From: Xylanibacter ruminicola
GTDB lineage: Bacteria > Bacteroidota > Bacteroidia > Bacteroidales > Bacteroidaceae
Length of the DNA: 64,000 bases
NCBI RefSeq assembly: GCF_900107775.1
Contig: NZ_FNRF01000003.1
Coordinates: forward strand, 1-64,000
Direction of reading: 5' to 3'
The translations under genes were made by a program, and so were the position numbers. Of this stretch, positions 7,735 through 20,181 are shown piece by piece. The notes under the pieces are model-generated. The model made no database searches, was not told the DNA's origin, and saw only the letters and a program-made list of their open reading frames with translations. Every line of letters starts with the position of its first letter. Positions within the stretch are counted from its first letter, which is position 1.

Positions 7735-7771
7735 AAATTGTAAGCAAAACTACTATTAATGCTTACGAATT
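7735..7771. promoter_or_regulatory. Nitrogen-gene inverted repeat, site A (dapL/glnK)
   Basis: Half-sites AAATTGTAAGCA (7735-7746) and TGCTTACGAATT (7760-7771) with a 13-bp spacer. The centre (7753) is 84 bp before the dapL -7 box. It has the same architecture as the sites at pyrG, gltB and glnA. It lies between divergent glnK and dapL and could serve both. The other parts of the 315-base gap hold the two promoters and AT-rich sequence. Confidence 0.75.
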
Positions 7772-7836
7772 GTTACTTTTCATTAAATCGAAGGTGATTA
7801 TGCTAAGTATTTTTTGAATTTTCTTTCAAAAAGTGC

Positions 7837-7845
7837 TACCTTTGC
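7837..7845 (+). promoter_or_regulatory. Predicted -7 box of dapL
   Basis: TACCTTTGC on the + strand, 28 bases before the dapL ATG; identical to the -7 boxes of pyrG, gltB and glnA. Confidence 0.65.
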
Positions 7846-7872
7846 ACCCGAAATTAAATAGGTTTATATTAT

Positions 7873-9105
7873 ATGGCATTAGTAAACGACCACTTCTTGA
7901 AGCTGCCGAACAATTATCTGTTCGCCGACATTGCAAAAAAGGTAAACGCCTTTAAGGCCATGCATCCCAAAGTGGATGTCATTTCGCTGGGTATAGGCGA
8001 TGTAACGCAACCACTGGCACCAGCCGTTATCGAGGCTATCCACAAGGCTGCCGACGAAATGGCCACCCGTCAGGGGTTCCGTGGCTACGGACCTGAGCAG
8101 GGCTACGATTTCTTGCGTGATGCTATCTTGAAGAACGATTTCCTGCCACGTGGTATCCATCTGGATCGCGACGAGGTGTTTATCAACGATGGTGCCAAGA
8201 GCGATACGGGTAACATTCAGGAACTGGTGCGCTGGGATAACTCTATCGGCGTTACCGATCCTATCTATCCTGTTTACATCGATTCGAACGTGATGATTGG
8301 TCGTGCGGGAGTTCAGGAGAATGGTCGTTGGTCTAATGTGCTGTATATGCCTTGTAATGCCGAGAACGGTTTTGTGCCCCAGCTGCCCGACCGCCGTGTC
8401 GACGTGATCTACCTGTGCTATCCTAACAACCCCACAGGTACCGTTATCTCTAAGGCCGAGCTGCGCAAGTGGGTAAACTACGCGCTTAAGAACGATACAC
8501 TCATCTTCTACGATGCTGCTTATCAGGCTTACATCCAGGACGATGAGATTCCCCATAGCATCTACGAGATTCGTGGTGCCCGCAAGTGCGCTATCGAGTT
8601 CCATTCGTACTCCAAGACGGCAGGCTTTACCGGTGTGCGCTGCGGCTACACCATCGTGCCTAAGGAGGTTACGGCTGCCACGCTCGATGGCGAGCGCATC
8701 CCTCTTAACCCTCTGTGGAACCGTCGCCAGTGTACCAAGTTTAATGGTACCAGCTACATTTCGCAGCGTGCTGCCGAAGCCATCTATACCCCCGAGGGTA
8801 AGCAGCAGGTTAAGGAAACTATCAACTACTACATGCAAAATGCCAAGAAGATGCTTACCACCCTGCGTGGCTTAGGCTTTGAGTGTTACGGTGGCGAGAA
8901 TGCCCCTTACATCTGGGCAAAGACGCCAGGCATTTCGGGGTCGTGGAAGTTCTTCGAAGAGATGTTGTACGGTGCCCATGTGGTTTGTACGCCGGGTGTG
9001 GGCTTCGGTCCATCGGGCGAAGGTTACGTACGATTCACGGCCTTCGGCAGTCACGAACAAACCGACGAGGCGCTGCACCGCATCGAGAACTGGTTAAAAA
9101 AGTAA
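7873..9105 (+). CDS. dapL: LL-diaminopimelate aminotransferase
   Basis: 410 residues, the usual DapL length. This PLP enzyme makes LL-diaminopimelate directly from tetrahydrodipicolinate with glutamate as amino donor, replacing the acylated DapD/C/E route. The PLP lysine is Lys248 in SYSKTAGFTG; YPNNPTGT at 183-190 and the N-terminal NYLFADIAKKV are typical of the family. It is transcribed away from glnK with a shared regulatory region, so mDAP and lysine synthesis appears tied to nitrogen status. It ends in a terminator shared with convergent purF. The dapF gene lies 10 kb away in the gltBD operon. Confidence 0.93.
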   Translation: MALVNDHFLKLPNNYLFADIAKKVNAFKAMHPKVDVISLGIGDVTQPLAPAVIEAIHKAADEMATRQGFRGYGPEQGYDFLRDAILKNDFLPRGIHLDRDEVFINDGAKSDTGNIQELVRWDNSIGVTDPIYPVYIDSNVMIGRAGVQENGRWSNVLYMPCNAENGFVPQLPDRRVDVIYLCYPNNPTGTVISKAELRKWVNYALKNDTLIFYDAAYQAYIQDDEIPHSIYEIRGARKCAIEFHSYSKTAGFTGVRCGYTIVPKEVTAATLDGERIPLNPLWNRRQCTKFNGTSYISQRAAEAIYTPEGKQQVKETINYYMQNAKKMLTTLRGLGFECYGGENAPYIWAKTPGISGSWKFFEEMLYGAHVVCTPGVGFGPSGEGYVRFTAFGSHEQTDEALHRIENWLKK

Positions 9106-9111
9106 TGGACG

Positions 9112-9148
9112 AAAAAAAAGTAGGTTCCTTTTCGGGACCTACTTTTTT
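9112..9148. terminator. Bidirectional terminator between dapL and purF
   Basis: AAAGTAGGTTCC and GGGACCTACTTTT arms with A- and T-runs on both sides form a terminator for both directions. Its right arm contains the purF stop codon (9139-9141), so the last purF codons are part of the hairpin. Confidence 0.85.
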
Positions 9149-19206: not shown

Positions 19207-19208
19207 GT

Positions 19209-20012
19209 ATGAGTACGATCCATTTTACCAAGATGCACGGCTGTGGTAACGACTACATCTATGTTGACACCACGCAGTACAATATCCCCGACCCTGAGGC
19301 GGCCTCCATCAAGTGGAGCCACCGCCACAAGGGCATCGGATCCGACGGACTGGTACTCATTGGCAAATCTACCGTACCCGAGGCTGATTTTACCATGCGT
19401 ATTTTTAATGCCGACGGTAGCGAGGCCATGATGTGTGGTAATGCCAGTCGCTGTATTGGTAAGTACCTTTACGAGCGCGGCATGACCGACCTGACCGAGA
19501 TTCGTCTGCTCACCCTCTCGGGTGTAAAGGTGCTCAGTCTGCATGTAAACAATGGTATTGTAGAGAGTGTTACTGTAGATATGGGCGATCCTGTACTTGA
19601 AAACGAGTCGCAGTTCCTGCCAACACGTAACCCTGGTCATGGCACATTCGTATCGATGGGCAATCCCCACTACGTGATATTTACCGATGATGTTGATCAG
19701 GTAGGCGAAACGGGTAAGGCCCTGGAGCATCACCCTGCATTCCCCCAGCGCTGCAACATCGAGTTTGCCCGTGTTGAGGCTGACGGTAGTATCCGCACCC
19801 GTGTGTGGGAGCGTGGCAGTGGTATCACCCAGGCTTGTGGTACTGGCGCCTGTGCTACCGCTGTGGCCGCCGCACTTACAGGTAAGGCCAGTCGCACATC
19901 GCAGATTGTGATGGATGGCGGCACGCTTACCATCGAGTGGAGCGAACAGGACAACCATGTGTACATGACTGGTCCGGCCGAGTTTGTGTGTGATGGCGAA
20001 ATAGCTTTATAA
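19209..20012 (+). CDS. dapF: Diaminopimelate epimerase
   Basis: 267 residues. It converts LL- to meso-diaminopimelate for peptidoglycan and lysine. The two catalytic cysteines are Cys76 (MCGNASRC) and Cys210 (ACGTGACAT); the N-terminus FTKMHGCGNDYIYVD is diagnostic. It starts two bases after gltD ends, so it is expressed with glutamate synthase. Together with dapL, which shares the same promoter motif, it places two steps of the mDAP pathway under the putative nitrogen control. Confidence 0.95.
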   Translation: MSTIHFTKMHGCGNDYIYVDTTQYNIPDPEAASIKWSHRHKGIGSDGLVLIGKSTVPEADFTMRIFNADGSEAMMCGNASRCIGKYLYERGMTDLTEIRLLTLSGVKVLSLHVNNGIVESVTVDMGDPVLENESQFLPTRNPGHGTFVSMGNPHYVIFTDDVDQVGETGKALEHHPAFPQRCNIEFARVEADGSIRTRVWERGSGITQACGTGACATAVAAALTGKASRTSQIVMDGGTLTIEWSEQDNHVYMTGPAEFVCDGEIAL

Positions 20013-20043
20013 AGGTATTAGCTAAACCCTGCATTTTGATTAC

Positions 20044-20080
20044 AATCTGTAAGAAAATACATATATAGAACTTACAATTT
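20044..20080. promoter_or_regulatory. Nitrogen-gene inverted repeat, site D (glnA)
   Basis: AATCTGTAAGAA (20044-20055) and AACTTACAATTT (20069-20080) with a 13-bp spacer. The centre (20062) is 85 bp before the glnA -7 box. Confidence 0.75.
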
Positions 20081-20146
20081 GTAATTTTGAGATAAAAACA
20101 AGATAAAAAATGTCGATAAAATAGGTAATTTACTTTCAATTTGTAG

Positions 20147-20181
20147 TACCTTTGCATCGGAATCATAGCAAAGTGTAAGCA
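20147..20181 (+). promoter_or_regulatory. glnA promoter -7 box with downstream half-site
   Basis: The -7 box TACCTTTGC is at 20147-20155. Half-site AAAGTGTAAGCA is at 20170-20181, 23 bp from the start of the box, the same distance as at gltB. Confidence 0.6.

Follow-up and report, generated by a model that had tools for sequence, protein, structure and literature searches.

Lrp-like proteins bind clusters of dyads set two or three helical turns apart (PMC2995911). At gltBDF of Escherichia coli the Lrp sites are centred at -152, -215 and -246, and insertion of half a helical turn harms expression whereas insertion of a full turn does not (PMC1784095). Here we describe a row of operators upstream of nitrogen genes in a 64,000-nucleotide stretch of Xylanibacter ruminicola (positions 1 to 64,000 of contig NZ_FNRF01000003.1, hereafter the window), the most conspicuous part of which is a set of four 37-bp palindromes in front of dapL, pyrG, gltB and glnN. 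The source belongs to the Xylanibacter/Prevotella ruminicola group, the closest named glutamate synthase locus among the matches listed being that of X. ruminicola Ga6B6 (98% identity). Our reading, at a probability of about 0.62, is that in the palindromes we see the strong, upstream members of a longer row of 15-bp operators, and that the row is likely bound by an AsnC-like protein, Lrp2, which would wrap the promoters and switch nitrogen assimilation.

The palindromes, at 7735-7771, 12584-12620, 13079-13115 and 20044-20080, have 12-bp arms with exactly 13 bp between them, and the distance from their centre to the T of the -7 box TACCTTTGC is 84 bp at dapL, 85 bp at pyrG, 84 bp at gltB and 85 bp at glnN. 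In all this the initial description, made from the sequence alone (the sequence-only reading), proved exact. In the same order, the two arms of a site agree with each other at 10, 10, 12 and 8 of 12 positions. The accompanying argument that chance is an unlikely explanation also holds. The first matrix was built from the eight arms of these palindromes and was re-estimated later for the box-distance scan; the four sites score 29.5-38.1 in the window, against 18.0 for the next best place at the same spacing, and with a leave-one-out matrix each palindrome still falls within the top four at its spacing. Throughout the organism's own 3.77-Mb genome, strong matches are few. The 16-base core TGTAAGCA-N13-TGCTTACA occurs with at most one mismatch at three places, all among the four palindromes, and the glnN site differs from the core by three mismatches, a level at which the genome holds 38 places and the reversed control 15. 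A 47-bp palindrome sequence model places the four palindromes as the best four places in the genome, although they were in its training set.

Relatives were sampled in two ways, as 80 named gltB loci, chosen as the best among 580 candidates, and as 60 genomes of the genus, 33 of which are at least 90% complete. A scan of these genomes for the core with mismatches was uninformative, since up to two mismatches were matched in 44 of 60 genomes and the reversed control often did equally well, and profile scans were therefore used in its place. In the 80 loci together with the window, matches of at least 22 bits numbered 26 at a spacer of 13 bp, four at 12 bp, and none at the other 18 spacers between 4 and 23 bp. 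In 26 of the 30 palindromes scoring at least 20 (22 of 26 outside the window), the distance between the centre and a TAnnTTTG box is exactly 84 or 85 bp. When 224 boxes upstream of 11 genes were scanned at distances of 40-149 bp, 14 matches were found at 84 bp and 32 at 85 bp, with a second peak at 116/117 bp (four and eight) and no more than two at any other distance. At three loci (L048, L065 and L078) a single palindrome between divergent glnK and gltB serves both directions in this sense, being 85 bp from one box and 84 bp from the other. Spacing and box distance are thus both kept in relatives, a point on which the sequence-only reading had staked its proposal.

The unit of the element is smaller than the 37-bp repeat. 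Each arm is itself a 15-bp dyad with the symmetric consensus CTTACAAATTGTAAG, having on average 4.35 of 7 complementary positions as against 1.86 in the same regions, which makes each palindrome a pair of operators at a distance of 32 bp. A single 37-bp dyad was rejected as the unit because the arms have their own dyads and because similar operators recur at 31-32 bp; the 12-bp half-sites originally described give way to two 15-bp dyads that open a longer row with a pitch of 31-32 bp. Lrp/AsnC operators are described as clusters of 13-15-bp dyads with AT-rich centres, two or three helical turns apart (PMC2995911), and the array as a whole has this form.

The extent of this row was mapped in 36 promoters carrying 33 distinct palindromes, with a 15-mer operator matrix trained solely on the strong upstream pair. 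Relative to the -7 box, the operators occupy a lattice at -101, -69, -38, -7, +25 and +56, a three-turn pitch, with the weaker ones running through the promoters. All 31 further operators scoring at least 5.8 within 60 bp of the box sit on this lattice, where about 0.02 would be expected per position; four are at -38, ten at -7, 15 at +24/+25 and two at +55/+57. The 116/117-bp class of box distances is the same lattice moved by one unit. A clean control set of 78 boxes contained no score of at least 4 at -69, -38, -7, +15 or +25, and one each at -133 and -101; five loci (L020, L028, L033, L039 and L042) had been excluded from it beforehand as likely true sites, without justification in the case of L039. 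The first control set (301-311 boxes, mostly from cluster loci) was contaminated by regulon promoters, and its frequencies for scores of at least 4, 43 of 301 at -101 and 72 of 301 at -69, serve as a conservative control only. Within the window, the glnK promoter has operators at -133, -101, -39, -7 and +25, that of glnN at -101, -69, -7 and +25, and that of gltB at -100, -68 and +25 with a very weak one (2.9) at -7.

The same phasing emerges from distances between operators scoring at least 5 in seven head-gene upstream regions of the 80 loci. Over a range of 15-140 bp, 422 of 500 pairs fall on phased peaks, at 31 bp (53 pairs), 32 (71), 42-43 (41), 61-64 (60), 73-74 (56), 93-94 (56), 104-105 (16), 125-126 (50) and 135-137 (19), and since divergent promoters were counted from both sides these counts, unlike the positions, are inflated. 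The peaks are three-turn steps with, at times, one four-turn step. Under a less strict criterion (15-mers paired at 31 or 32 bp with a summed score of at least 12), pairs are present in 54 of the 80 loci, and a third of the named loci have none. By gene, pairs occur at gltB in 44/80, glnK 31/54, pyrG 13/53, glnN 13/56, dapF 12/64, dapL 3/63 and asnB 1/33, with none at gltD (0/79), amtB (0/54), purF (0/47) or the porin gene (0/48). An off-phase control at 26/37 bp gave 10/80 loci (gltB 8/80), and a spacing of 21/42 bp, which includes the four-turn step, 23/80 at gltB. In these loci (L046-L125) asnB, the porin gene, amtB, glnK, dapL, purF, pyrG, gltB, gltD, dapF and glnN are mostly clustered, in an order and orientation that vary widely.

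Column conservation across the 36 promoters reaches about 23 bp to either side of the palindrome centre and picks out a half-site-like stretch immediately upstream of the -7 box. Also conserved, at +37 to +42 relative to the centre, is a GTAGAT block that is registered to the palindrome and has A-tracts on both sides; directly after it comes the 1-bp slip that separates the 84-bp class from the 85-bp class. The block may mark a bend or the contact of a second factor.

As to what binds the row, the sequence-only reading had found no candidate gene. None is indeed evident in the window, but an AsnC-type candidate is present elsewhere in the genome, and its own promoter carries the same operator. 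The genome encodes three proteins with PF01037, here called Lrp1, Lrp2 and Lrp3. Lrp1 adjoins a gene resembling that for O-acetylhomoserine sulfhydrylase and Lrp3 lies behind exbD-like genes. The AsnC-like Lrp2 (C10:100028-100504, outside the window) exceeds the cut-offs for PF13404 (expectation value (E) 4.4e-13) and PF01037 (E 3.9e-20), an AsnC-type helix-turn-helix and a RAM/AsnC ligand-binding domain, and its closest solved relative, over almost its whole length, is E. coli AsnC (2cg4; E 1.7e-26). A match of at least 71% identity is found in 56 of the 60 genus genomes, and in 32 of the 33 with a completeness of 90% or more.

Reading covered 49 of the 50 upstream regions of lrp2 (its own and 49 others) and yielded a usable box in 45. 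About half of these promoters have the same operator: a 15-mer scoring at least 8 stands exactly at +15 from the box in 22 of 45, a position that would suit Lrp/AsnC autoregulation. At +15 the contaminated controls contain one site in 301, the window's own palindrome, and the clean controls none in 78 even at a score of at least 4. Away from +15, operators of at least 5.8 appear in lrp2 regions just three times, at -27 and -57, and at any position a 15-mer of at least 8 is present in 26 of 49 regions compared with 5.5% of shuffles. These promoters also have a second conserved dyad, TTG...CAA, centred 32 bp upstream, which may be their -33 element. In at least seven of 60 genomes (G001, G007, G017, G018, G035, G037 and G049) the 47-bp model, which had no lrp2 sequences in its training set, has a match no more than about 80 bp ahead of lrp2. 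Outside the genus, 29 regions upstream of lrp2 orthologues were taken, 20 read and 16 boxed; six of the 16 score at least 4 at +15, three of them above 10. As the same site so often stands at the start of its gene, this AsnC-type regulator is likely the nitrogen switch. By analogy with its family, we infer that Lrp2 binds as several dimers of one oligomer, which on precedent would be an octamer.

The predicted regulon extends beyond the four sites. Next in the organism's own genome come the glnK pair (E 1.7e-4) and two places near TonB-receptor-like genes (E 0.003 and 0.008), followed by the proximal operator region of glnN (E 0.21). The two TonB-receptor-like places (L207 and L208) are on the same contig about 36-41 kb past the window, and L208 has an operator pair scoring 19.3 whose TAnnTTTG box, 144 bp away, does not fit the lattice. 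In the genus, the model has matches at E ≤0.1 in 34 of 60 genomes, upstream of glnK-amtB, glnN, gltB and asnB and, on reading the protein sequences, of asnA (L230, L245), a meso-diaminopimelate dehydrogenase gene (L232) and, more weakly, serC (L241) and leuA (L235, where the second dyad is poor). Among the 59 matched loci, some of which repeat training species, 19 have an operator pair of at least 16, and 12 of these a box at 53, 84-85 or 115-117 bp; the glnN site of L221 duplicates the training sequence L049, so that independence is imperfect. From these matches we predict a regulon of glnK-amtB, gltBD, glnN, asnA, asnB, dapF, dapL, ddh and pyrG, with serC and leuA as weaker candidates. Across the order, 29 of 99 genomes have matches at E ≤0.05, most of the 28 loci read adjoin genes without an evident nitrogen role, and the only sensible ones are at a glutamine synthetase gene (L247), a dapL/porin-glnK gap (L249), a leuA-like gene (L255) and lrp (L262), so that any reach beyond the genus has few cases behind it.

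The suggestion that these genes respond to nitrogen agrees with published physiology: their syntenic counterparts form one strong stimulon in P. ruminicola 23. With ammonium rather than peptides, amtB was 47-fold, PRU_1977 46.5-fold, glnK 43.3-fold and asnB 15.3-fold higher; ammonium concentration changed amtB 69-fold, glnN-2 35-fold and gltBD 27-33-fold; and the activities of glutamine synthetase (GS), glutamate synthase (GOGAT) and NADPH-dependent glutamate dehydrogenase were higher at excess ammonium (PMC5552732). That peptide supply lowers this gene set fits a feast/famine regulator. Our searches of open-licence literature listed no description of an Lrp/AsnC nitrogen regulon or of this operator in Bacteroidota, nor did passages of PMC11878027, PMC10861873, PMC9723704 and PMC4177876 contain one, and the searches turned up no named regulator or operator for the ammonia-assimilation response of P. 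ruminicola.

In the mechanism that we propose, Lrp2 dimers would fill the strong -101/-69 pair first. When amino acids are scarce, the oligomer at this pair would activate by assisting RNA polymerase, always from the same face of the helix; with amino acids plentiful, ligand-bound Lrp2 would also fill -38, -7 and +25 where these are present and so shut the promoter. By precedent, the ligand would be glutamine or asparagine. Synthesis of Lrp2 itself would be self-limiting through the operator next to the -7 box of lrp2. Of the upstream-activator or looping regulator envisaged by the sequence-only reading, the conserved, helically phased element at nitrogen genes stands, whereas, with some operators overlapping the core promoter, activation purely from upstream or by looping cannot be taken as established. 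A bolder extension makes Lrp2 the master nitrogen regulator of the Bacteroidales, acting from a six-position lattice of about -101 to +56 in the place of NtrC or GlnR and moving all its targets together: ammonia uptake, GS-GOGAT, and asparagine, diaminopimelate and CTP synthesis. We regard this as tentative, a little short of an even bet.

Several observations weigh against a wrapping row bound by Lrp2. At dapL and pyrG the stretch up to the box contains the upstream pair alone, with no proximal operator of at least 5, so that the weak operators are not required everywhere, and the glnK promoter has an additional 15-mer (8.0) off the lattice at +44. Among boxed lrp2 promoters, 23 of 45 stay below 8 at +15. 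In four of the genus genomes (G005, G030, G039 and G054) no close match to Lrp2 is present, and two of these have operators: G030 (92% complete) has a glnK/dapF pair scoring 36.9 with boxes at 85 and 117 bp and a Lrp3 orthologue (67%), and G054 (76% complete) an asnB pair scoring 29.9 and Lrp3 (79%), with no Lrp2 in either assembly. Either lrp2 lies in missing parts of these assemblies, or Lrp3 or another paralogue serves the array. A TTTG is present at -29 to -18 in 11 of 36 promoters compared with 16 of 48 controls, and exactly at -24 in two of 36 compared with 10 of 48; this -33 element shows no clear difference and does not tell an activator from a repressor. Finally, PMC5552732 contradicts itself on the direction of the response to ammonium concentration.

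The alternative that survives best keeps the same operators and regulator and makes the latter a plain repressor, which wraps the promoters in amino-acid plenty and leaves under scarcity, with no activation. We consider this unlikely, if by no means far-fetched. It would account well for operators that overlap the -7 box or sit just downstream of it at glnK, gltB, glnN and lrp2, and for -7 boxes that are good, but less well for the fact that the strongest and only universal operators are far upstream at a fixed distance, or for dapL and pyrG with nothing proximal. More doubtful still is that the binder is Lrp3, both paralogues, or mixed Lrp/AsnC oligomers. Lrp3 occurs widely and shares 44-49% identity with Lrp2, G030 and G054 point towards it, and some 15-mer of at least 8 is found in five of 20 lrp3 upstream regions compared with 5.2% of shuffles; yet none of the 10 boxed lrp3 promoters reaches 8 at +15 (one reaches 4), and no model match falls at lrp3 among the matches listed. 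We find it improbable that a regulator of another family, such as a BirA-type winged-helix protein, binds the 37-bp dyad as a unit, the weaker operators being incidental. Two arms about 13 bp apart do recall the BirA operator, which is one palindrome with TTGTAAACC arms 14-16 bp apart at biotin genes, but the arms here have their own dyads, and the further operators at the same pitch and the operator of lrp2 would be left unexplained. Identity with the BirA operator was rejected, the spacer being 13 or 12 bp only, the genes those of nitrogen metabolism and further operators present. A reading of the palindromes as RNA hairpins (of a terminator or a leader), or else as copies of some small repeat element, is very improbable indeed. 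Three of the four fold better than shuffles as RNA (the gltB site at -17.7 kcal/mol), and their 13-base loops place them outside our terminator scan, which allowed loops of up to 8 bases. Against this, the glnN site has hardly any fold (-3.1 kcal/mol, z -1.0), positions 1-26000 contain no match to an Rfam family, strong copies occur nowhere but in this cluster, and neither hairpin nor repeat predicts the -7 box register or the lattice.

Features of the window that bear on the proposed operator row. Operator positions in brackets are relative to the -7 box; E values are those of the 47-bp model.
Feature	Coordinates	Strand	Evidence
Palindrome 1 with extended arms: operators centred at 7737 and 7769 (dapL -100/-68; glnK -101/-133)	7730..7776		Scores 15.0, 15.1; E 3.0e-7
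Fifth, weaker pair, glnK: operators centred at 7643 (-7) and 7675 (-39)	7636..7682		Scores 6.3, 10.5; E 1.7e-4, outside training set
Weak operator centred at 7611 (glnK +25)	7604..7618		Score 5.8
Palindrome 2: operators centred at 12586 and 12618 (pyrG -69/-101)	12579..12625		Scores 11.2, 13.5; E 1.1e-6
Palindrome 3: operators centred at 13081 and 13113 (gltB -100/-68)	13074..13120		Scores 17.8, 17.0; E 5.9e-10
Very weak operator-like site centred at 13174 (gltB -7)	13167..13181		Score 2.9
Operator centred at 13206 (gltB +25)	13199..13213		Score 7.3
Palindrome 4: operators centred at 20046 and 20078 (glnN -101/-69)	20039..20085		Scores 18.4, 18.9; E 3.5e-6
Operator centred at 20140 (glnN -7)	20133..20147		Score 10.9
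Operator centred at 20172 (glnN +25)	20165..20179		Score 10.3
dapL -7 box TACCTTTGC	7837..7845	+	Box scan
glnK -7 box TAACTTTGC, 117 bp from centre of palindrome 1	7628..7636	-	Box scan
pyrG -7 box TACCTTTGC	12509..12517	-	Box scan
gltB -7 box TACCTTTGC	13181..13189	+	Box scan
glnN -7 box TACCTTTGC	20147..20155	+	Box scan
glnK, amtB, unnamed 235-amino acid protein, asnB	3388..7557	-	NCBIfam asparagine synthase B and ammonium transporter over cut-off; P-II models below cut-off
dapL, LL-diaminopimelate aminotransferase	7873..9105	+	TIGR03542 over cut-off
pyrG (CTP synthase), then PurF-like amidotransferase	9139..12483	-	PyrG over cut-off; PurF model below cut-off
gltB, gltD, dapF	13230..20012	+	gltD and dapF over cut-off; gltB via its relatives
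glnN, long type III glutamine synthetase	20209..22422	+	Type I/III models below cut-offs; name from length and synteny with P. ruminicola glnN-2

Among the neighbouring genes, the 235-amino acid protein (5110-5817, minus strand), between amtB and asnB, has no Pfam or NCBIfam match and stays with amtB in many relatives. Its syntenic counterpart is PRU_1977, among the strongest nitrogen-responsive genes reported for P. ruminicola 23 (PMC5552732). The gene that the sequence-only reading called purF (9139-10887, minus strand) reaches 148.6 bits with the PurF model, for which the cut-off is 350, and may encode a distinct amidotransferase. The pyrG-gltB intergenic region contains short direct repeats at 12654-12820 and 12960-12990 (GTTCACATGCCCATGCCG twice, CTATTAATGGTAACA-like units and GTAGCACT units).

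In both rumen and colon, Bacteroidota rank with the most abundant bacteria. The outcome for them is an operator sequence, a positional rule with which genomes can be scanned, a predicted regulon, and a single candidate protein to which there is one clear alternative. Should our reading be true, this would be an unusually regular and conserved case of a feast/famine protein laying a promoter around itself.

How does this system compare with those already described? TnrA and GlnR recognize TGTNA-N7-TNACA, and NtrC acts with sigma-54 promoters (-24/-12 and an NtrC site). All share with the present system the control by nitrogen of glutamine and glutamate synthesis. As the sequence-only reading held, the operators here are not TnrA/GlnR sites, their consensus dyad being TTACA-N3-TGTAA, and unlike those of NtrC the promoters carry TAnnTTTG boxes at a fixed register. 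E. coli AsnC, the nearest solved relative of Lrp2, is known mainly as a local regulator of asnA and itself; asnA and asnB are included in the regulon predicted here, but the targets proposed belong to central nitrogen assimilation.

Closer parallels come from Lrp-like proteins. Sa-Lrp of Sulfolobus acidocaldarius responds to glutamine and binds the control regions of gltB, gdhA and glnA as well as its own promoter, and its gltB operator is inferred to be wrapped around an octamer, but it is archaeal and has a broader, partly architectural role (PMC3584215). Ss-LrpB of Sulfolobus solfataricus has regularly spaced operators, about 100 bp being wrapped round three dimers, and its concentration-dependent switch from positive to negative autoregulation is a precedent for the dose-dependent switch proposed here, although it is described at its own promoter, in another organism and with another operator sequence (PMC2995911). 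At gltBDF of E. coli, glutamate synthase is likewise under Lrp-family control from upstream, and the sites, 63 and 31 bp apart, have the same three-turn pitch, but they lie far upstream and need IHF (PMC1784095). The row described here, by contrast, begins at about -101 of the -7 box, may cross the core promoter and serves several nitrogen operons.

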